Source of the DNA: Nitrospirota bacterium
GTDB taxonomy: Bacteria > Nitrospirota > Thermodesulfovibrionia > Thermodesulfovibrionales > UBA1546
Reading direction: 5' to 3'
NCBI GenBank assembly: GCA_026387575.1
Contig: JAPLLK010000048.1
Location: forward strand, 1 to 54,873
Length of the DNA stretch: 54,873 bases
Shown here: in pieces, positions 15,896 through 42,498 of the stretch
Layout: each line of letters begins with the position of its first letter
Numbering within the stretch: position 1 is the first letter of the stretch
Program-made: the position numbers and the translations under genes
The notes under the pieces: model-generated
The model's input: the letters and a program-made list of their open reading frames with translations, nothing else
The model's database searches: none
Told to the model about the DNA's origin: nothing

Positions 15896-16011
15896 GCTTT
15901 GAGCAATCTCCTGTCGTCACGCCTCTACTTTAACACGGGTATTCTACATAGACAAAAACCAATTTAAATCTATCAAGCCAATTTAGAAATGTCCGGTTTT
16001 TATTACCCTTC

Positions 16012-17091
16012 TTATTCATGAATCTTTCTGAAGAATTTTACAGCTATAACTGCAAATACCAGAGGGACAAACCATGCCGCTATAATAGGAGGAAGTATCC
16101 CTGTATATCCCATTGAGAGGGACATTGCATGGCTGACCCAGTAAAGAAGGCTTATAAAAATGCCAATCGCAGTTGTTGCAAGCCCTCCCCCTGCTTTCCC
16201 CCTCATCGGCAGAGAAATTCCGAGCAAAACCATAAAGAAATTAACAACAGGATATGAGATCTTAGAATTCAAATCAACCAGAAGTTTCAGATTTCTGAAT
16301 CCTGCCTCCTCTAATCTCTTTGTATACCTAAAGAGTTCTTTTATGCCCATATCTTCAGGCTTCCGTATCTCTTCGGCAAACACAGAAGGAGGGCCTATGA
16401 ACGGATACTCAAGCGAGTTATAGTTTTTTATTGAGCTCTGCTCCATGTCATATACAGTCACGTTCTCAAGCACCCATTTCCCGTCAGAACCTTTGACATC
16501 AATCCATCGCGCTTCTTCAGCCTCTATTCTTTCTCTCATGCGTCCGCTGCCGACCTTGAATATGCTGATATCCTTGGAAATCTTTTCCTCCGGCATATAC
16601 AGTCCTATCTTCACTATAGAACCGTCTGCTGCCCTCAGCCACATCGTGCCTTCTTTAAATGAGAACTTCTTGCCCTTTTTCATGATTGAACTTTTAAGCT
16701 CGAATGCCCTCTTTGAAAATTCAGGGACTACCGCCTCTCCGAGGACAAAACCGAAGAGACTTAAAGCTATGCCGCCGTATAGGAAAGGCATAAACAGAGT
16801 CCTAAGACGGCCCCCTGCCGCTTTAATTGATGTTATTTCCTCTCTCCTCTTTGCCTGACTGACAACAAACAAACTGCAAAGAAGAATTGCCATCGGGAAA
16901 AGATAGAGAAGATACCGAGGGAAATTGAAAACCACATAAAGTATAAGACTTTTTATAGAAGGCTTATACGGCAGAAAGTCGTCTATCTTATCAATCAGGT
17001 CAAGAAGGCTGAATATGAGGGCAAGCCCTGCTGCAATTAAAGTTAAAACCTTAAAAAACTCCCTGAGATAATGCTTCTGGATTATCAGCAT
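16012..17091 (-). CDS. lptG: LPS export permease, YjgQ family
   Basis: YjgP/YjgQ architecture, paired with the adjacent permease. Confidence 0.87.
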   Translation of the reverse strand: MLIIQKHYLREFFKVLTLIAAGLALIFSLLDLIDKIDDFLPYKPSIKSLILYVVFNFPRYLLYLFPMAILLCSLFVVSQAKRREEITSIKAAGGRLRTLFMPFLYGGIALSLFGFVLGEAVVPEFSKRAFELKSSIMKKGKKFSFKEGTMWLRAADGSIVKIGLYMPEEKISKDISIFKVGSGRMRERIEAEEARWIDVKGSDGKWVLENVTVYDMEQSSIKNYNSLEYPFIGPPSVFAEEIRKPEDMGIKELFRYTKRLEEAGFRNLKLLVDLNSKISYPVVNFFMVLLGISLPMRGKAGGGLATTAIGIFISLLYWVSHAMSLSMGYTGILPPIIAAWFVPLVFAVIAVKFFRKIHE

Positions 17092-17093
17092 TG

Positions 17094-18173
17094 CTACCTT
17101 TTATTCTCCCTTTTAAACACACCGATTGAGAAAAGACCAAGTATAACTGTCGGGCTCCATGCTCCAATATAATGAGGTATCTTCCCTGACCTTGCAAGAT
17201 TTTCCCCGTATATGAGCAAAATATAAAAAACAGCAAATATCATAAGCCCGAGAGTAAGACCGCCAAGCCTCCCTGATTTCCCTGCAAACAGCGACAGCGG
17301 CGGGCCAAGCAGCATGAGTATCAGACATACGGAGGGCAGAGAGAGTCTCCGGTACAGTTCAAGGAAGAAAGGCACTGCCTGCTGCCGGGACAGGTTGTTA
17401 GTCTCACGGAACAGTTCAAATGGTGTAAGTTCGCTGTTTTTCCTGGCAGACTGTTCTGTGTTAAGGTTTAAGGACAGATGATACCCTGTAAAGAAGAACT
17501 CTGTTGAACTGGCCCCGCTTGCAATCTGCATATATCCGTCCTTTAAATAAAATGCGATATCAACGCCATCCACAGCGGAAATCCTGCCTTCCTTTGCAGT
17601 CACAACTTTCGGCTCTTTCTTATTCCTCTCATCATATATAAATATCTCGCGCATCCTGTCAGCCTCAGGTTTTTCTTTTACAAAAAGCACAATATCCTTA
17701 AACAAGGTGGTAAATACTCCTTCTTCTATGGCGGCAGGAGCCCTTGTCGTTATTACATTTGAAATCGTTTCCCTCAGTTTTATCATGCTGACAGGTCCAA
17801 GATAAAAGCTCACAAGCATTCCTGTGAAAAAACAGCTTAGCCCAAGAATAAATACAGGTGCAGCTATCCCCTTAAACGTCATCCCGCTTGCCCTGAGTAT
17901 TACTATCTCATTGTCGGTATTTAGTCTGCCATAGGTTAGTAGAGTTGACATTAAAAGTGACATCGGCAGTGTAAGAATCAGCATCGGCGGCTGCAGATAC
18001 AGTATTATCTTTAACATATCAAAGAGAGATGCTCCTACAACAGAAAGCAACCTGCTCAACCTGAGTATCTTTTCCATTATAAGAATAAAATTGAGAGCGA
18101 TGAGGCTTAAAAGAAATGTAAGGACAAGCTCCTTGAGCATCTCCTTGTGTATTGTATAAATCCTTATTTTCAT
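17094..18173 (-). CDS. lptF: LPS export permease, YjgP family
   Basis: 'LTLPMSLLMSTLLTYGRLNTDNEIVILRASGMT'. Confidence 0.87.
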   Translation of the reverse strand: MKIRIYTIHKEMLKELVLTFLLSLIALNFILIMEKILRLSRLLSVVGASLFDMLKIILYLQPPMLILTLPMSLLMSTLLTYGRLNTDNEIVILRASGMTFKGIAAPVFILGLSCFFTGMLVSFYLGPVSMIKLRETISNVITTRAPAAIEEGVFTTLFKDIVLFVKEKPEADRMREIFIYDERNKKEPKVVTAKEGRISAVDGVDIAFYLKDGYMQIASGASSTEFFFTGYHLSLNLNTEQSARKNSELTPFELFRETNNLSRQQAVPFFLELYRRLSLPSVCLILMLLGPPLSLFAGKSGRLGGLTLGLMIFAVFYILLIYGENLARSGKIPHYIGAWSPTVILGLFSIGVFKRENKR

Positions 18174-18296
18174 TTGAGGTATTTTACCTTATTTGCGTCT
18201 TTGACACCAAATATTCATAAATGTTAAACTTTAAACCCGCTCTACGAGTCATCGACTGCATTGTTTGAGGGGAAGAGAAGATAAGAGGGCGCTGAT

Positions 18297-18860
18297 TTGG
18301 ACATCAAAAAAATAGAAAAAGGGGTAAGGCTTATACTTGAAGGCATCGGCGAGGACCCTGAGCGGGCAGGGCTCAAAGACACCCCTTCCCGCGTTGCCAA
18401 GATGTATGAAGAAATATTCTCTGGGCTTGAGACTCCGACAGAGGAGATACTCAAACACATCGAGGGCGAAAGCCACGACGAGATGGTGCTTTTAAAGGAT
18501 ATCCCTTTTTATTCTGTATGCGAACACCACCTCCTGCCTTTCATAGGCAGCGCCCATGTTGCATACATACCAAGCGCCGGCAAGATAGCAGGCATCGGAG
18601 AGCTTGCAAGGGCAGTTGAAGTCCTTGCAAAGAAACCGCAGGTGCAGGAGCGTCTTACAGCACAGCTTGCAGACATGCTTATGGAAAAGCTGAAGCCCAA
18701 AGGCGCAATGGTGATTATTGATGCAGAGCATCTGTGCCTGAGCATGCGCGGATTGAAAAAACCCGGGGCAAGAACAGTAACATCAGCAGTAAGAGGGATA
18801 TTCAGGACAAAGGAATCAACACGGGAAGAACTGCTGGAACTGATAAAGAAAAGAGATTAA
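18297..18860 (+). CDS. folE: GTP cyclohydrolase I (TTG start)
   Basis: '[35 protein letters not shown]'. Confidence 0.97.
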
Positions 18861-18869
18861 GGAGGAACT

Positions 18870-19736
18870 ATGGCAGCACAATTAATTGACGGCAAAAAAG
18901 TAGCGGCAGATATTAGGGCTAAATTAAAGATCGAGATTGAGGAGCTTAAGTCTAAAGGAATTCATCCGGGTCTTGCTGTTGTACTTGTAGGAGAAAATCC
19001 TGCGTCACAGAAATATGTTGCATCAAAGGAAAAGGCCTGCGCTGAAATAGGCGTAGCAAGCTTTGCCCACAAAATACCGGCCACAACAACACAGCCAGAA
19101 CTGATAAAACTCATTGACCAGCTTAATAATGACACAAAGGTAGATGGGATTCTTGTCCAGCTTCCTCTGCCAAAAGGGCTTGATGAAAAAGAGGTAATGA
19201 ACAGGATATCTCCTGCAAAGGATGTTGACGGGTTCGGGCCTGAGGCCCTCGGAAAACTTGTGCTTGATGAACCCGGGTTTGTTGCGTGCACTCCCCACGG
19301 CGCAATGAAAATGATTGAGGCATACGGCATTGATCCAAAGGGAAAACATGCGGTTATCGTAGGCAGAAGTGTAATTGTTGGAAAGCCTCTTGCATTGCTC
19401 CTGCTCAGAAAACATGCAACAGTCACTATCTGCCACAGCAGAACACCTAATCTTAAGGAAGAATGTCTCAGGGCAGACATACTGTGCGCTGCGGTAGGCA
19501 AGGCAAAAACCATTACAGGCGACATGGTGAAAGAAGGCGCTGCGGTTATAGACATCGGCATAAATGTTACACCGGAAGGAAAGATTGTAGGCGATGTTGA
19601 TTTTGATGCTGCAAAAGAACGGGCAGGTTACATAACACCTGTTCCCGGTGGCGCAGGGCCTATGACAATAGCAATGCTTATGTATAACACTGTTCTTGCC
19701 GCAAAGATGGCGGCAGGAATGAAGGTAGATATATAG
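18870..19736 (+). CDS. folD: Bifunctional methylenetetrahydrofolate dehydrogenase/cyclohydrolase
   Basis: '[32 protein letters not shown]', '[18 protein letters not shown]', '[15 protein letters not shown]'. Confidence 0.97.
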
Positions 19737-20105
19737 CTACGGAATAATCACTGCGTCGTCAAGACCTTTGAAATGAGCATCGCTTGTGATTACTTTACAG
19801 TTCTCTTCCATTGCCGTTGCATAAACAATGGCATCAGCCATCGGGAGCGAATATTTCAGACTAAGGTCTGCTGCCAGAAGAGCTATACTTTCACTAAATG
19901 GGATAACTGATGTCTTGTTTATCAGAGAAACCGCTGATAGCGCATCTTCTTCTGTCCGCTCTCTTTTTATCTTTTTATAAACCTCATAAAGCACAATTGT
20001 GGGAGTAACTACCCTTGAGATGTCCTTAAGATATTTTGAATATTCTTTAGCGAGAGGCCCATCCGTAAAGAATTCAATCCACCCTGATGAATCCATAAGA
20101 AACAT
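19737..20105 (-). CDS. PIN-domain VapC-type toxin
   Basis: 'FLMDSSGWIEFF' and 'LPMADAIVYATAMEENCKVITSDAHF'; 1-nt overlap with the antitoxin. Confidence 0.88.
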   Translation of the reverse strand: MFLMDSSGWIEFFTDGPLAKEYSKYLKDISRVVTPTIVLYEVYKKIKRERTEEDALSAVSLINKTSVIPFSESIALLAADLSLKYSLPMADAIVYATAMEENCKVITSDAHFKGLDDAVIIP

Positions 20106-20311
20106 TACCTGTCTTTATCCTCCCTTATATTCCTTGTATCCATCCCTTTTAAAAAACCTCTGAAAGATTCTACGGGTTTTTCAGGAATCAGATACACCAC
20201 TCCTCCTTTTGTGACAACAGTCATTTTCTGCCCGCTCTTCAGATGAAGCTTTTCCCTCACATCTTTTGGTATGACCACCTGATATTTCGGCGATATTGTT
20301 GTAGTAGCCAT
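20105..20311 (-). CDS. AbrB/SpoVT-type antitoxin
   Basis: 'TTISPKYQVVIPKDVREKLHLKSGQKM'. Confidence 0.88.
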   Translation of the reverse strand: MATTTISPKYQVVIPKDVREKLHLKSGQKMTVVTKGGVVYLIPEKPVESFRGFLKGMDTRNIREDKDR

Positions 20312-20503
20312 TTATCCCCCTTTTCTCTTATCGATATAAAAATTGTAAAACGGCAGGATTTTTTTGTCAATGAAAACTTCGATGCTTCGTATCTATCGGA
20401 GATTCTTTCAGATGTTCCCACTCGGGGAGCAACTCATTAATGTTGTCTGAAAAATCTCAGGATATTCTGTTAAAATAGCTGCACATCACATTTGGAGGAA
20501 AAG

Positions 20504-21026
20504 ATGAAAAAAATCCTTGTCTTTTTATTGCTGCTTACGGTAGCAACCGCATGCCAGAGGAAAGAGGAACCGAAGTCTCAATCTCAGCCCCCCCGCCGGC
20601 ATGCTTTATACAGAGAATGAGCTTAAGCTCCTTCAGGACGCTGTACAAAATGACCCCGGGAATCTGAATGCATGGATAAGTCTCGGCAATTTTCTTATGG
20701 ACTCATCCCGCTTTAATGAGGCGGTTGACGCCTATCAAAGGGCCCTCGCTATCGACCCCAAGAATGTCGATGTTAGGGTTGACATGGGAACATGTTACAG
20801 AAACTCCGGCAAGCCCGAGATAGCAATCAAGGAATTCAGAAAAGCCCTCGAGCTAAACCCCAATCATCCTTATGGACATATGAATTTAGGGGTTGTTCTG
20901 GCCTATGACCTGAAAGACAACGTTCAAGCGATTAAAGAATTCGAGAGATATCTTCAACTTGCGCCGAACTCCCCGAATGCAGATAATATCAGGATGGAAA
21001 TACAGAGGCTGAAGTCAATAAAGTAG
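20504..21026 (+). pseudogene. TPR lipoprotein split by a frameshift at a 7-C run
   Basis: ATG at 20504 encodes MKKILVFLLLLTVATACQRKEEPKSQSQPP..; the TPR frame (20601-21026) is offset by +1 across ccccccc at about 20588-20594. Confidence 0.8.
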
Positions 21027-21173
21027 TTTAATGCTTGTTTTCCTGGTCTCCAAAAGGCTGGTAAAGTTACGATAATGAGCGGGGATGGGAGAATTCCCGC
21101 CCCCTTCATCGCTTTACTACTCGGCAAGCTTGAGTTCTTTTGCTGCTGCCTTTATGTCGTTGTCGTTACAAAA

Positions 21174-21205
21174 GTTTCAATCCACGCGCCCCCGCGGGGC
21201 GCGAC
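21174..21205 (-). CRISPR. Solitary type I-C-like CRISPR repeat
   Basis: gtttcaatccacgcgcccccgcggggcgcgac; reverse complement ends in ATTGAAAC. Confidence 0.85.
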
Positions 21206-22456
21206 TAATTCTAATCTTACATGATTTTAACGAAGTTCTGGCATTGATTGACTCATTGAAAGGCAAGTGGGATTTTAAAGCGGCAGAGGCTTCAATAGAA
21301 GAACCGTTAAACCAGTTCGGATATAGAGGATTACACATTACCCTTGATATGGGCGATGGCATAAGCGGAGAGATACAACTACATACCCGTGGAAGTGAAA
21401 AGATAAAGAAGATAACAGAGATAATTTATAGGGACTATAGGAATTGGACGAAGAAAGATATTGAGGCATTGCCTCCTGAAGAGCTTCACAAATATAGAAC
21501 TGACATGAAACGCTCTAATGATTTATGGAAAAACTATTGGGATACGATAGACCCATCGGTTAAGGCAGCTGCTTCTTCTGCGGTTAAGGGCTTGGAATCT
21601 GATATAACTCCGACTTTAACTTTTCCACCATCAACCCAAACTCCATCTTTGAAAAGCAAGGGAACCTTGCCCGAATCCAGTGGTCTTAAATCTATTACTG
21701 AACCCTTAAACGGAAGCACAATTTTCAAATTTTCTGGACGCATGGGAGCAGGGGAAAATCCGCAAAGATATTCCTCTTGTGGTGAGCAGCACACCTGAAG
21801 TTCTTGAAAAGTTGGGGGCAAAACAGTTCCCTATTGTAATAAGCCATAGTATCCTACAAAAAACAATTTATCCTGAAGGCATTGGCACAGGCAAACATAT
21901 AATCCCTATTGATGAACTAAAAAAACTTACGAGAGAGTTATATGAACCAATTATGATATTAAGGGCAGAACAAGCAGGGAGAATTGTAGTTATTACTGGC
22001 ATGAAAGATAAAGGCGAGAATGTGATAGTCGCTATTCAGATGAACACAGCCCACCGTAGATACGAAGTCCATGAGATAATTACCCTTCATGGAAGAGGCA
22101 CCGGCTGGATAGAAAATAGGGTAATAAATGGTAACCTTTTGTATTATGACAAAACAAAAAGCCTTAATTCGGCAGAGATTCAAAGGGCTTACGCTTCATC
22201 CCTGAAGATGCCAAACAAAGGCTCTAATAAGACTATACTCTCTGACGATGATATTGTCAAGCCTAATTTTGAAGATAAGCCGCTACTTAAACTTGGCAAG
22301 CCTTCTCCCGAATCCATAGCCGAAGTTGAAGATGTCATTAAGAATGTCTTTGCCCGTGCTGAGATAATGTTAGGCAAGGGAACCGTGTCTGAGGGCTTTC
22401 AGCCCTCTGCAAATATCCTTGACGCTCTCAGCACGAATGTAAAGAGCAGGGCATTA
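21206..22456 (+). other. Phage-type polyvalent/MuF-C-like coding fragment, truncated at both ends by CRISPR repeats and carrying a frameshift
   Basis: RelA/SpoT-like 'GYRGLHITLDMGDGISGEIQLHT' then 'AWEQGKIRKDIPLVVSSTPEVLEKLGAKQFPIVIS...' resembling phage MuF C-terminal domains; continuity is restored by removing one G at 21712-21713. Confidence 0.6.
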
Positions 22457-22555
22457 GTTTCAATCCACGCCCCTGCGCGAGGGGCGACCTGCTTTGGGTT
22501 ATCCTGTCTGCGGCACATTTTTTGTTTCAATCCACGCGCCCCCGCGGAGCGCGAC
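22457..22555 (-). CRISPR. Two-repeat type I-C-like mini-array with one 35-bp spacer
   Basis: 32-bp repeats at 22457-22488 and 22524-22555; spacer 22489-22523 ctgctttgggttatcctgtctgcggcacatttttt. Confidence 0.88.
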
Positions 22556-22836
22556 TTATATGCTTCTCCACTAAAAGTCATTGGGTCTTTTTTACCGAGA
22601 ATTCGCAAAATGACGGCACAGTTTCCCTCAAGCATATAAAAAACGCGATGCTTGTCCACCCTGAGCCTGTAATAATTCGTCTTTGTTCCTTAGATTTTTT
22701 TGATTAGCTTTCCTCTGGGAAAAGGGTTGTCCCTGAGTGCCTGTAATGCTCGAACAATCTTTCCGCAAACACTGTCACTGAAGCTGTTAAGGTCTTTACT
22801 CGCATTGGGTGAAAGGATGATCTGAAACTTATCCAC
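22556..22836 (-). pseudogene. RelE/ParE-like toxin remnant: in-frame TAA at codon 49 and 3' end truncated at a CRISPR repeat
   Basis: GTG start 22836; VDKFQIILSPNASKDL..NPFPRGKLIKKI*GTKTNYYRLRVDKHRVFYMLEGNCAVILRILGKKDPMTFSGEAYK, then repeat sequence. Confidence 0.75.
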
Positions 22837-23092
22837 TTTTTCTTTTCCTTTTTGACAGGTAATCCTCCAGAGTTACGCCGCCCTTGCTATGGTACTCTGC
22901 CTGCGATTCAGCGAGCATGTCCTGCAGAGCAACGCTTTTTTCGAGCAGATAGTCTTCAAAGTCCTCCTCTGAAATCGCGGTGACAATTGCCCGCGGCTTG
23001 CCCTTGGATGTGATAATCACAGCCTCTTTTTCTGCGTTTCTCAATATCTCGGACGTCTTGTTCTTAAGTTCTCTGACATTGGCGAATTTCAT
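22829..23092 (-). CDS. Phd/YefM-type antitoxin
   Basis: 'MKFANVRELKNKTSEILRNAEKEAVIITSKGKPRAIVTAIS'; start moved from the ORF track (23293) to the ATG at 23092 preceded by ggagg. Confidence 0.85.
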   Translation of the reverse strand: MKFANVRELKNKTSEILRNAEKEAVIITSKGKPRAIVTAISEEDFEDYLLEKSVALQDMLAESQAEYHSKGGVTLEDYLSKRKRKSG

Positions 23093-23334
23093 TGCATTCC
23101 TCCATGTGGCTATATTTGTAGCTACTATGTCATATTCCACAATTCTTAAAACTTCTTTAGAATATGCCGCAATTCCGCCAGATAACCCCATTCCCCGCAC
23201 TGCCATGTCTAACTTATTGAAAGGATAATACTTGCGAATAGACTTTGCAACTAAAAAGCTCCTGCTGTTGAATTTTCTTGCAATCTGCGTCAATAAATGG
23301 TAAAAATTTATAACACCGCAACAAGGAGGAGACT

Positions 23335-23655
23335 ATGGCTAAACTTCCGGGGCAATACATGAGCATCAGGAAAAGGTTTAAAAAATATTTCAAGGCTGTT
23401 GACAGTCTTGGAAAGGCTGCAAAGACATCAGGCCCTATAAAAAATAAAACCTCTCACCTGATTCAACTTGCTGCTGCCGCTGCCATCAGGTCAGAGGGCG
23501 CCGTACATTCCCATACAAGAAGGGCTTTGCAGGCAGGGGCAAAACCCGAAGAAATATACCATGCAATTCTTCTACTTACAAGCACCATAGGGTTTCCGAC
23601 GGTATCTGCCGCGCTGAGTTGGGTTGATGACGTTCTGGGGAGCAAAAACAAATAG
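23335..23655 (+). CDS. AhpD/carboxymuconolactone decarboxylase-family protein
   Basis: 'IQLAAAAAIRSEGAVHSHTRRALQAGAKPEEIYHAILL'. Confidence 0.88.
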   Translation: MAKLPGQYMSIRKRFKKYFKAVDSLGKAAKTSGPIKNKTSHLIQLAAAAAIRSEGAVHSHTRRALQAGAKPEEIYHAILLLTSTIGFPTVSAALSWVDDVLGSKNK

Positions 23656-23707
23656 CGGACGGAGACTGTGTCTGGATTGAGGCAAGATTCACGGGTCTGT
23701 CAGTTCC

Positions 23708-24454
23708 TTACTTCTTCAGCCCTTTAAGCCGCTCTTTGACTTTGTTTTTCAGAGCTTCGTCAGATGAAAGGTTAAGAAAGGTCTGATAGTGGCTCTCTGC
23801 AGTAAGGCTATCTCCTTCTGCCTCAAGCAGCAGCGCGTAATTCAAATGGGCCTCAGCATACGAGGGGTTCAGAGATAGCGCCTTTTTATAAAAAAACTTC
23901 GCCTTCTTTTTGTCTCCGAGAATCTCGTGGGTTACGGCTAAATTATTCATAGCCTCGTAATAATCAGGCTTAAGCTTAAGAGCCTTCTCATAAGCCTTTG
24001 CCGCATCTTTGTATTTGCCCTGATTTCTTAATGCAATCCCAAGGTGATTGTGCATCATCGCATCATCAGGCTTTGCAAGAATCGCCTTCCTGAGAATATC
24101 TTCTGCATCAGAATATTTTTTATCCCTGATATGCTTTATCGCATCTTCATGAGTTTTTGCTGTATCAGGGGCAGCAGCAACCGGCGGTTCTTTTTTCTTA
24201 ACAGACTCAGCAGCGGCCTTAGGCTGAACAGTTGTAACTTTTGGTTCAGTCTTTACAAAAGGTTTTAAGGTAGGTCTTTTCTGAAGCCAATAAAGTCCGA
24301 CAAGCGCAAACCCAACAACTCCGGCAAGAACAGCGGCAATTATACCCAATACCCTTTTATTCGTGAAGTGGTATGCCTGAGTTTTTTTGACAGGCGCGCT
24401 CTCAAGCCTTGATTCTTCCTCCGCTTTTTTGAGAGCCTTAAAAATTATGCTCAT
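23708..24454 (-). CDS. TPR-repeat membrane protein
   Basis: One TM helix then 'MMHNHLGIALRNQGKYKDAAKAYEKALKLKPDYYEAMNNLAV' TPR units. Confidence 0.85.
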   Translation of the reverse strand: MSIIFKALKKAEEESRLESAPVKKTQAYHFTNKRVLGIIAAVLAGVVGFALVGLYWLQKRPTLKPFVKTEPKVTTVQPKAAAESVKKKEPPVAAAPDTAKTHEDAIKHIRDKKYSDAEDILRKAILAKPDDAMMHNHLGIALRNQGKYKDAAKAYEKALKLKPDYYEAMNNLAVTHEILGDKKKAKFFYKKALSLNPSYAEAHLNYALLLEAEGDSLTAESHYQTFLNLSSDEALKNKVKERLKGLKK

Positions 24455-25112
24455 AGATGTTCACTCCTTCAGGTAAAGAAAAATCAAAGGCCGCATCTTT
24501 AATGCCTGTGTTTATCTCAATATCCTTAAGCTGTATCTCAATCCTGTTTGAACGCATGTCATTTATTATAAAAGATTTTATAGGAAAGTCTTCATCGGAT
24601 GTTTCTATCTCCACAGAAACAATATTGCCCATAGGATTTTTAGGCATAAGAACCAGCCTGTTATTTTTCTTAGTTATATTGAATTCCTCCCTTACTTTCC
24701 CAAAACCGCTCAGCAGGGCAACAGGCGCCTGACCGTATGTCTGCCTGCTGAAAGCGCTCTTGAATGCCTGTTTCTCCGCCTTTTTATATATCAGAATCTT
24801 ATCGTTATTTATTATAATCTCCTGCGGCTTATTACCCTTGTATTCCCATCTCATCTTTGAAGGCCTCTTTATAAAAAGAACGCCTTTGTATATGTCTGTT
24901 CTGCCGAGGTCTTTCATATAGTTCTTCTGGACAAAGGCGGCTTTTATGTCGCTTATATTCCTGTAAGCCTCCTGAATCCTTGTAACCTCATCATCAGTTG
25001 AAGAAGCAATACAAGATGCAGGATACACGATGCATGTCAGAACAAATAAAATATGGAATATGCCCTTTTTTATCCTGCATCCTGTATCCTGCATCTTGTA
25101 TCCTGTAATCAC
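24438..25112 (-). CDS. LolA-like outer-membrane lipoprotein carrier protein
   Basis: 'SDIKAAFVQKNYMKDLGRTDIYKGVLFIKRPSKMRWEYKGNKPQEIIINNDKILIY'. Confidence 0.88.
   Translation of the reverse strand: MITGYKMQDTGCRIKKGIFHILFVLTCIVYPASCIASSTDDEVTRIQEAYRNISDIKAAFVQKNYMKDLGRTDIYKGVLFIKRPSKMRWEYKGNKPQEIIINNDKILIYKKAEKQAFKSAFSRQTYGQAPVALLSGFGKVREEFNITKKNNRLVLMPKNPMGNIVSVEIETSDEDFPIKSFIINDMRSNRIEIQLKDIEINTGIKDAAFDFSLPEGVNIYEHNF
25009..25105. repeat. Heptanucleotide-periodic inverted repeat within the lolA-like 5' end
   Basis: atacaag-atgcagg-atacacg-atgcatg (25009-25036) against tatcctg-catcctg-tatcctg-catcttg-tatcctg (25071-25105); 23/24 complementary between 25009-25032 and 25078-25101. Confidence 0.85.
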
Positions 25113-27175
25113 CTTCTTCTCCTCAGAAAATCTCTGGGTTTGCCTGCGCCTTTCGGCATGCCCACAAGCCCATCTTCCTCCATTAGTGCCATAATACGCG
25201 CAGCCCTGTTATAACCTATTTTGAACCGCCTCTGGATTGACGATATGGACACCTCACCCACAGACTCTGCATGTTCCACTGCCTTATGATACATCTCATC
25301 TCTCTCGGCCGAGGGCTCGTTATCCATCGGCTCTTCTATCCGTATATTTTCGAATATGGAATAATCCGGGACTCCCTGTGACATGATAAAATCTGTAACG
25401 GCTTTTATCTCATCTTCTGTGATAAGCGCACCGTGTATGCGTATTATTTTTACCCCCGGAAGCATGAAAAGCATATCGCCCTTACCGAGAAGCTGTTCAG
25501 CGCCCTGCGCATCAAGGATAGTCCTTGAATCTATCCTCGTGGTAACCTGGAACGAGATCCTTGCCGGGAAATTAGCCTTAATGACGCCTGTGATAACATC
25601 AACCGACGGCCTCTGTGTTGCAAGGACAAGATGTATGCCTGATGCTCGCGCCATCTGTGCAAGCCTTGCTATGGCATCCTCAACTTCATTTGCAGAGGCA
25701 AACATCAGGTCTGCAAGCTCATCTATAAAGATAACAATATAAGGCAGCCGCTCCTCCTCTGAAACCACTTTATTGTAGTTCTCTATGTTCTTCGTGCTTT
25801 TTTGAGCAAGCAGTCTGTATCTATTCTCCATCTCAAAAACCATCTTACGCAGCGCCTCTGCCGCCTCTTTCGGATTTGTTATGACAGGCGAGATAAGATG
25901 CGGAATCCCTTCGTAAGCGGAAAGTTCAAGAAGTTTAGGGTCTATCATCAGCATCTTAACCTCTTTCGGTGACGCCTTGTAAAGAATGCTCATCACCATA
26001 GAGTTTATTGATACGCTCTTGCCAGAGCCTGTGGCTCCTGCAACAAGAAGATGCGGCATCTTCGCAAGGTCAGCAACAACAGGGACGCCGAATATGTCTT
26101 TACCTAGCGCCAGCGTGAGTTTTGAATGGTTTTTCTTAAAGCTGTCCGAAGATATAATTTCTCTCAGGGATACTGTATCGCGCAGCCTGTTCGGCACTTC
26201 AATCCCGATGGCTGACTTGCCGGAAATCGTAGATACCCTTACTCCTGGAGCCTTAAGCGCAAGCGCAAGGTCATCAGAAAGTGAAACAACCCTGTTTATT
26301 TTTACTCCCGGCGCGGGTTCAAACTCATACATTGTCACAACAGGCCCTGCCTGCACCTGTGTTACTTTTCCCTCCACATCAAAATCAGAAAGTTTCTGTA
26401 CAAGCAGAGAAGAACTTGTCAGAAGTTCATCCTTTGACGGCCTTATCCCTGAGTCATATACATTAAGCAGATCTAAAGAAGGCAGCGTATAGTCTCCTGC
26501 CCTGCGTGGAATTGTATTTATCGGTTTTAATAAAGGCGCCTCCTGTCCAAACTGTCGTGCAGATTCTGTCAGAAAAGGCTCCAGAGATTCTACGCCTTGA
26601 ATAATGTTCTCTTCAATCAACGGCTCAGATACCTGTTCTTCTTCAATTGCCTCATTCTTCCTGCCTCTCAATGCAAGCGATACCAATGATACAGGGCTGA
26701 GAAGCACTATAGAAGACAGGAACACTGCCAGCGAAAAGATATACGCTCCAGGTATTGATAAAAGATTTCTTATAAAATCCGCGATGAACAGGCCTGTGAT
26801 TCCTCCCGGATTACTCTCAACCTTAAGATTAAATGTTGATGACATCAGAGACAAAAGCATGGCAGAAGAAAGAACAAAAAGCAGTGAGCCGATCAAATGT
26901 ATCCTGTGGGCTTCTTTTCTGAGCAGTCTCTTAACGCCGTATACAACTATAAACAGCGGAATAGCAAAGGCTGATATACCTATAATCATCAGCAAAGCAT
27001 CTGACATATAAGCTCCTGCTATGCCGCCGTAGTTCTTTGTGGAAGAGTTAGTAAACGTGAAAAGAGAAGGGTCCCATTTTTTGTGGGTTACAAGGCTCAG
27101 TCCGATGTAAATACCGCCTAAGATTGAGACAATACCAAGGACCTCGTCTTTAACCCTTTTTATCCTTTCAGCCAT
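25109..27175 (-). CDS. ftsK: DNA translocase FtsK/SpoIIIE
   Basis: 4 TM helices, 'PHLLVAGATGSGKSVSINSMVMSILY', C-terminal gamma winged helix. Confidence 0.96.
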   Translation of the reverse strand: MAERIKRVKDEVLGIVSILGGIYIGLSLVTHKKWDPSLFTFTNSSTKNYGGIAGAYMSDALLMIIGISAFAIPLFIVVYGVKRLLRKEAHRIHLIGSLLFVLSSAMLLSLMSSTFNLKVESNPGGITGLFIADFIRNLLSIPGAYIFSLAVFLSSIVLLSPVSLVSLALRGRKNEAIEEEQVSEPLIEENIIQGVESLEPFLTESARQFGQEAPLLKPINTIPRRAGDYTLPSLDLLNVYDSGIRPSKDELLTSSSLLVQKLSDFDVEGKVTQVQAGPVVTMYEFEPAPGVKINRVVSLSDDLALALKAPGVRVSTISGKSAIGIEVPNRLRDTVSLREIISSDSFKKNHSKLTLALGKDIFGVPVVADLAKMPHLLVAGATGSGKSVSINSMVMSILYKASPKEVKMLMIDPKLLELSAYEGIPHLISPVITNPKEAAEALRKMVFEMENRYRLLAQKSTKNIENYNKVVSEEERLPYIVIFIDELADLMFASANEVEDAIARLAQMARASGIHLVLATQRPSVDVITGVIKANFPARISFQVTTRIDSRTILDAQGAEQLLGKGDMLFMLPGVKIIRIHGALITEDEIKAVTDFIMSQGVPDYSIFENIRIEEPMDNEPSAERDEMYHKAVEHAESVGEVSISSIQRRFKIGYNRAARIMALMEEDGLVGMPKGAGKPRDFLRRRR

Positions 27176-40963: not shown

Positions 40964-42498
40964 TATACAACAAGTTTTTTGGTTTCAGGGAAGAGCCGTT
41001 TGGCCTGACGCCTAATCCTAAGTTTCTCTACATGAGCAAGAAGCACGAGGAAGCAATTGCTCATCTGAATTTCGGCATATCAGAGAATAAAGGTTTTATT
41101 ATGCTCACAGGAGAGGTGGGCTCCGGAAAGACAACATTGATAAGGTATCTCCTTAATAACATTGGTCATTATACTCATACCTCGCTGATAATCAATCCTA
41201 AGGTTAATCCTCTTGAGCTACTTAAGCTTATAAATTATGATTTTGGCGTTACCGCCGCAGGCACTACAGAGAAGGACAATCTTGAGGCGCTTAACAATTT
41301 TCTCCTTGACGCATTTTCAAAAAATGAAAAGGCAGTCCTCATAATAGACGAAGCGCAGGAGTTGAGCCTTGAAAGCCTTGAGTTTATCAGGCTTCTGTCA
41401 AACTTTGAGACCAACACAAAAAAACTGCTTCAGGTGATTCTTGTCGGCCAGCCTGAATTAAAGAGAATTGTTGCAAGCGAACCGCTGAAACAACTTGACC
41501 AGAGGATTGCCATCAGATATCACCTTGAGCCGTTGAGCCGCGATGATACAACTATATACATAAATCACAGGTTGAGGCTTGCAGGCGGCGGGATGATAAC
41601 ATTCCCTGCAAAAGGCATAAAACTTATTTACAAATACAGCCGAGGTATCCCAAGGCTTATTAACCTTGCGTGTGACAGGACACTGCTGTTTTCCTATTCA
41701 GAAGGCAAGATTAATATGGATGTGGGCATGGTAAGGAAAGCTGTAAGAGATTTGAGCTTCCCTGACAGCAAAGGAACAACAGGTTTTTTAAAGCCTGCAA
41801 TAATCGGAGTATCTATATTCTTTCTTATTGTAATCCTTGCATACGGCAATGTATCCAGAGAAGACAGTTATTTTGAGAAGATAAGCAGTATGTTAAAGGG
41901 AGTCAAGATAGAGGGTGATTTTTTCATAAGTGATGGAATATATATGGTTTCAAATGAAGAGCTTTTTGAGGCAGCCTGCACATTAAATCTCCTGAACATC
42001 TGGGGAGAAAAGGATTTAAAAGGCAGCGCTGAGGCGGGTAAGGAGATAGCGAGGAGAGGGTTTTCTGTTTATAAACTCGGCAGCGATATTGATAGGGCGG
42101 TGAAATTTAACATGCCGTGTATAATCTCTCTGAAGCATGGGAAGACAAACAGGTGCGTTGTTCTCAGATGGGTTGTGGGAAATGACGCAATGCTCATAGA
42201 CCCAAGAGAGGGAAAGAATATCCTGCCGGTAAAAACATTCAAGAATATGATTACAGAGGGAATAGTGTTTTACAAAAACAGGTATAGAGGCAATAACCGG
42301 ATTTTATCGCTACAGCAGGAGTTAAAGGCGCGCGGCCTGTACAATTATCCCGCAACAGGGGAATTAGGGCCGAGGACGAAACAGGCATTGATGAAATTTC
42401 AGGAAAGGGAGGGACTTGTGAAAACAGGCGAACTTGATGATGAGACAGCAGTCATGCTTTCAAATACTGAGGGTATGCCGAAACTGGCTCCGGAGTAA
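40951..42498 (+). CDS. ExeA/GspA-like AAA ATPase with C-terminal peptidoglycan-binding domain
   Basis: 'FFGFREEPFGLTPNPKFLYMSKKHEEA', 'LTGEVGSGKTTLIRYLL', 'LIIDEAQELSLESLEFIRLLSNFET', C-terminal 'TGELGPRTKQALMKFQ'. Confidence 0.93.
   Translation: MAGLIYNKFFGFREEPFGLTPNPKFLYMSKKHEEAIAHLNFGISENKGFIMLTGEVGSGKTTLIRYLLNNIGHYTHTSLIINPKVNPLELLKLINYDFGVTAAGTTEKDNLEALNNFLLDAFSKNEKAVLIIDEAQELSLESLEFIRLLSNFETNTKKLLQVILVGQPELKRIVASEPLKQLDQRIAIRYHLEPLSRDDTTIYINHRLRLAGGGMITFPAKGIKLIYKYSRGIPRLINLACDRTLLFSYSEGKINMDVGMVRKAVRDLSFPDSKGTTGFLKPAIIGVSIFFLIVILAYGNVSREDSYFEKISSMLKGVKIEGDFFISDGIYMVSNEELFEAACTLNLLNIWGEKDLKGSAEAGKEIARRGFSVYKLGSDIDRAVKFNMPCIISLKHGKTNRCVVLRWVVGNDAMLIDPREGKNILPVKTFKNMITEGIVFYKNRYRGNNRILSLQQELKARGLYNYPATGELGPRTKQALMKFQEREGLVKTGELDDETAVMLSNTEGMPKLAPE

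Follow-up and report, generated by a model that had tools for sequence, protein, structure and literature searches.

The three type I-C-like CRISPR repeats in the window, the 54,873-nt stretch of DNA analyzed here, probably belong to a real, dead orphan array into which phage DNA recombined and in which that DNA later decayed (Table 1). Under this scenario, a remnant of a type I-C array would have persisted in a genome without detected Cas1 or Cas5, a segment of phage DNA would have recombined in between two of its repeats, and the insert would then have been worn down through frameshift or deletion to 1251 bp. The likeliest source event is recombination of the array with the DNA of an infecting phage, the timing and route of entry being what we infer from the locus as it stands. 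It is expected to have no present function. The window contig (C19) is part of a metagenome-type draft of 1.63 Mb in 98 contigs that is 92% complete.

Table 1. Features of the CRISPR-like locus and its borders, in window coordinates
Feature	Position	Strand	Remarks
Left part of the block missing from the collinear locus of G001	20210..21173	.	Lipoprotein/TPR gene with a frame break; short minus-strand coding-like tail
I-C-like CRISPR repeat 1	21174..21205	-	GTTTCAATCCACGCGCCCCCGCGGGGCGCGAC on +, array orientation is -; differs by 1 nt from the repeat in G006 (same genus)
Fragment A, phage-type: putative RelA/SpoT-like domain (C-terminal half) and linker	21206..21712	+	Frame 21202-21711, truncated at the repeat
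Block of 142 bp identical to C50:55399-55540	21571..21712	+	C50 copy abuts an I-E-like repeat
Fragment B, phage-type: MuF_C module from a large polyvalent protein	21713..22456	+	Frame differs from that of A
I-C-like repeat 2	22457..22488	-	Identical to the repeat of the array in G003 (same genus); 5 differences relative to repeat 1
Spacer, 35 nt	22489..22523	-	Between repeats 2 and 3
I-C-like repeat 3	22524..22555	-	1 difference from repeat 1; 2 nt from the G006 repeat
29-nt stretch from repeat 3 to the conserved chromosomal flank	22556..22584	.	Leader absent; truncated spacer possible
RelE-like toxin pseudogene	22585..22840	-	In-frame stop; 3' end replaced at 22585

The repeats and their relatives

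Two genomes of the same genus, G003 and G006, encode complete arrays of these repeats beside cas genes including cas1. Therefore, the repeats of the window are genuine I-C repeats and not chance matches. The palindromic stem folds in all three, while the stems themselves differ and the longest exact match among the repeats is 24 nt. The core GTTTCAATCCACGC occurs three times in the whole 1.63-Mb genome, each time in the window, and the reversed control gave 0 matches. Spacing is canonical on one side only. Repeats 2 and 3 have a period of 67 bp, whereas 1251 bp separate repeats 1 and 2, as against the 32-37 nt expected for regular I-C spacers, a range that holds every spacer measured in the G003 and G006 arrays. 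The first-pass annotation, made from the letters of the window, had described type I-C-like repeats of 32 bp starting at 21174, 22457 and 22524, a normal 35-bp spacer between the last two, no recognizable leader and no cas genes; the repeats, the spacer and the missing leader are borne out. The leader motif (T)TAAACTACAACTTACTAAAT, found after the arrays of G003, G006 and G011, is absent beside the outer repeats of the window, including next to repeat 3. A check for cas5 elsewhere in the genome had been proposed, and neither Cas5 (PF09704) nor Cas1 (PF01867), the two cas families searched, was detected in the 92%-complete assembly. The spacer at 22489-22523 has no exact 22-mer match in viral contigs.

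As phage DNA here has repeats directly at both of its ends, it could be viewed as an oversized spacer, that is, as very long phage DNA integrated by Cas1-Cas2 in an aberrant round of adaptation. We consider this extremely improbable. Spacer length is fixed by the integrase, the spacers measured in G003 and G006 keep to a narrow range, and no further long spacers were seen in the arrays of either genome. In addition, the two repeats flanking the insert differ from one another, whereas adaptation copies one repeat.

Related genomes hold several other arrangements of these elements. A RhuM-like gene lies within the I-C cas operon of both G003 and G006, between the cas4-like gene and cas1. At G011:C1:30246-30277, all that is left of an array is a single repeat with the leader motif after it, and a run of ATCATCAATCAA repeats comes next. 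A solitary I-C-like repeat at G006:C21:61144-61175 has TTTTTATTT on both sides, resembling a target-site duplication around a single repeat. Two further solitary I-C repeats adjoin VapBC-like toxin-antitoxin genes, one at G006:C5:34336-34367, with a divergent stem and ~0.95 kb from the main array, the other at G013:C373:9013-9044.

The phage-type insert and its other copies

The DNA between repeats 1 and 2 (21206-22456) had been read as phage-type coding DNA with a RelA/SpoT-like and a MuF-C-like segment, in one frame running from repeat to repeat without a stop. Its phage character stands for part B, in which the MuF_C domain (PF18819) was found with E=7e-21 and 74.7 bits, against a Pfam cut-off of 27.6. 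Part B can be aligned from near its first residues, through the N-terminal approach and the domain itself, to large polyvalent proteins of phages, the partners being in Escherichia phages, in an IMG/VR contig and, as a 3810-aa frame, in G085. For part A, a Pfam search returned nothing, leaving the RelA/SpoT-like assignment without Pfam support. However, its motif GYRGLHI...GEIQLHTR is RelA/SpoT-like, and Foldseek gave weak matches headed by CapRel/Rel (best E 0.02, with a low-confidence query model of pLDDT 47), so that part A may comprise the latter half of a RelA/SpoT-type domain and, after it, a linker. The single open frame proved wrong, as there are two, 21202-21796 and 21713-22456 (248 codons), with a break at ~21712. 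Either A and B are a single gene whose frame shifts by 1 nt at ~21712, or two separate pieces meet at that point, and the insert is in a pseudogene state.

Among 395 genomes of the phylum, the sole other copy of fragment A is on contig C50 of the same genome. An intact relative of part A was found neither in these 395 genomes nor in IMG/VR, GTDB genomes and phage records, and a search of the latter three collections for the intact phage gene gave only distant MuF_C homologues. The genome itself holds further degraded copies of the same gene. The MuF_C part recurs on C55 at ~15970-16216, between obg and an aspartokinase gene, and 214 bp of part A recur at C50:55327-55540. The left edge of the C50 copy is a 49-bp sequence that is dispersed in relatives and looks like an insertion-sequence end. 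At its right edge, an eroded repeat of I-E-like type follows without a gap, and another of this kind lies 403 bp beyond. The copy lies where a tRNA-Leu(TAA) island of 14.3 kb (C50:41771-56146) ends, an island bounded by a 62-bp repetition of the tRNA-Leu 3' end at about 41771-41832 and 56084-56146. The chromosome of same-genus G001 is uninterrupted at this site, where the C50 flanks 41832 and 56084 are adjacent. Genes of the island encode a GmrSD-type restriction enzyme, a WYL regulator, an HD/YfbR-like protein and an Hsp70-TPR protein.

Both CRISPR-like remnants detected in the genome, which was searched for I-C and for this I-E-like motif, touch the same phage gene, and to our eye this looks non-random. 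Only this link between one phage gene and two types of CRISPR repeat sets the locus apart as unusual. It would also fit an origin in which the repeats arrived with the phage, either as solitary repeat units of the Racr type (RNA anti-CRISPRs) or in a mini-array, so that the locus would be what is left of a prophage and not an array of the host. Consistent with this origin, a search of the other 15 genomes of the family did not find the I-E-like repeat, and a family-wide I-E-like system was accordingly rejected. The motif forms 61-bp arrays in viral contigs and occurs many times per record in plasmids. Moreover, repeat 2 is unlike repeats 1 and 3, and solitary I-C repeats that closely resemble the latter two do occur in viral contigs. 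One viral contig, IMGVR_UViG_3300031673_000079, carries three solitary I-C repeats that are Racr candidates. Published work on Racr units and mini-arrays (PMC10651486, PMC8616872) likewise supports arrival with a phage. Nonetheless, we regard it as unlikely, if still a live alternative, as both ends of the insert appear to lie inside coding sequence, whereas the high-scoring solitary repeats described in PMC10651486 are mostly intergenic. Repeat 2 was found in no viral contig searched, and these repeats form genuine arrays in hosts of the same genus. The viral contigs and phage records searched yielded no phage that combines this gene with a repeat.

Flanks of the locus and integrity of the assembly

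On C19, both outer flanks of the locus (16818-20209 and 22585-26104) have their collinear counterparts at a single locus of G001, within ~250 bp. The DNA next to the outer repeats had been described as looking coding, RelE-like on the right and on the minus strand to the left. A short minus-strand coding-like tail is present on the left, and the RelE-like gene on the right is itself a pseudogene with its last 9 codons replaced. The lipoprotein/TPR gene at window positions 20500-21026, in the block absent from G001, is broken in frame at a tract of seven C. The insert ends, which appear to lie in coding sequence, are what is expected of recombination breakpoints and, together with the stop and replaced 3' end of the RelE-like gene and the break in the TPR frame, they underlie the picture of decay.

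Since the draft is of metagenome type and in 98 contigs, the array may have been falsely joined to the phage that it targeted, as the first-pass annotation had offered as one option. Three pairs of contig ends overlap by exactly 141 bp, suggesting a de Bruijn assembly with k=141, and the 142-bp block shared with C50 is then k+1 in length. This block is identical in the two contigs, yet the preceding 72 bp differ at 9 positions, and the frame break of the insert falls at the end of the block. A local graph ambiguity at 21571-21712 is therefore possible. However, a single mis-join or swap between C19 and C50 through the block is ruled out because both contigs keep outer flanks collinear with G001. 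The C50 flanks are its own and adjacent in that genome. A join through repeat identity is likewise unlikely, as repeats sharing at most 24 identical bases would be unable to cause false joins at k=141. A separate, diverged copy of the gene on C55 also speaks against an artefact, and the window contig has no Ns. Given the above, a chimera is quite unlikely. A real insertion into an array, the second option of the first-pass annotation, is the best supported with its flanks collinear at one G001 locus. The third, acquisition of repeats at a phage-derived locus, is possible, as is a phage-borne repeat or mini-array, and has less support than the insertion.

Route of entry and relation to known systems

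How the phage DNA would have entered the array is less clear than that it recombined there. Recombination between spacer and protospacer is a published route for phage or prophage entry to CRISPR loci (Varble et al. 2019, 2021, as cited in passages of PMC8616872 and PMC10434264). It predicts a spacer duplicated at both ends of the insert after a single crossover, or a PAM after a double crossover. The terminal 36-mers of the insert are no more similar than shuffled sequence, and no GAA (TTC on the minus strand) is present at the inner border of its left end at spacer lengths 32-38. A search of the insert ends as spacers against other arrays had also been proposed. None of 135 I-C spacers from the collected loci, which include no intact array of this strain, matched it above the shuffled control. 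With the ends not duplicated, the left PAM absent and no spacer match, the spacer/protospacer route is without positive support. We hold a recombination such as Varble et al. reported to be possible, in a tentative way, and illegitimate recombination to be just as tentative a candidate. A third route, repeat-to-repeat integration between solitary repeats of a phage and those of the host, is stated as a proposal in PMC8616872. It would fit both the I-E-like repeat on C50 and the deviating repeat 2. We consider recombination with a phage-borne repeat rather unlikely as the route taken here. As the predictions of the spacer route fail and solitary repeats are mostly intergenic, our firm commitment is limited to recombination and decay.

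As a real locus, it would be a natural fossil of recombination between phage DNA and an I-C array, an event so far described, in the papers cited here, in staphylococci and streptococci. The presence of one phage gene beside both repeat types would let one ask whether repeats, besides spacers, guide such events. It is doubtful that, in this genome with no cas genes detected, one and the same phage gene entered or was captured at the I-C repeats of C19 as well as at the I-E-like repeats of C50. If they did, CRISPR remnants or phage-borne repeat mimics would repeatedly seed phage DNA integration via repeat-based recombination. Should the locus be an assembly error, it would instead be a caution for the interpretation of CRISPR loci in draft genomes.

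Several known systems share features with this locus. As in the phage integration of Varble et al., phage DNA lies inside an array, between repeats. However, only 1.25 kb of degraded coding DNA is left here, neither a duplicated spacer nor, at the testable end, a PAM is present, cas genes were not found, and the array is type I-C while those systems are streptococcal and staphylococcal. Like orphan or degenerate CRISPR arrays, the locus has few repeats and a missing leader in a genome without detected Cas1 or Cas5. It differs from them in that one inter-repeat interval is a phage gene fragment and that two repeat variants are mixed. Part B aligns with the large MuF_C (PF18819) polyvalent phage proteins across the domain and N-terminal approach, whereas here the fragment alone survives, out of frame with the RelA/SpoT-like piece. 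Similarly, the solitary repeat units and RNA anti-CRISPRs of PMC10651486, and the virus-borne mini-arrays of Medvedeva et al. 2019, place CRISPR-like repeats by phage genes without cas. In contrast to those, the repeats of the window interrupt coding sequence rather than lying between genes, and the genus has host arrays with the same repeats.
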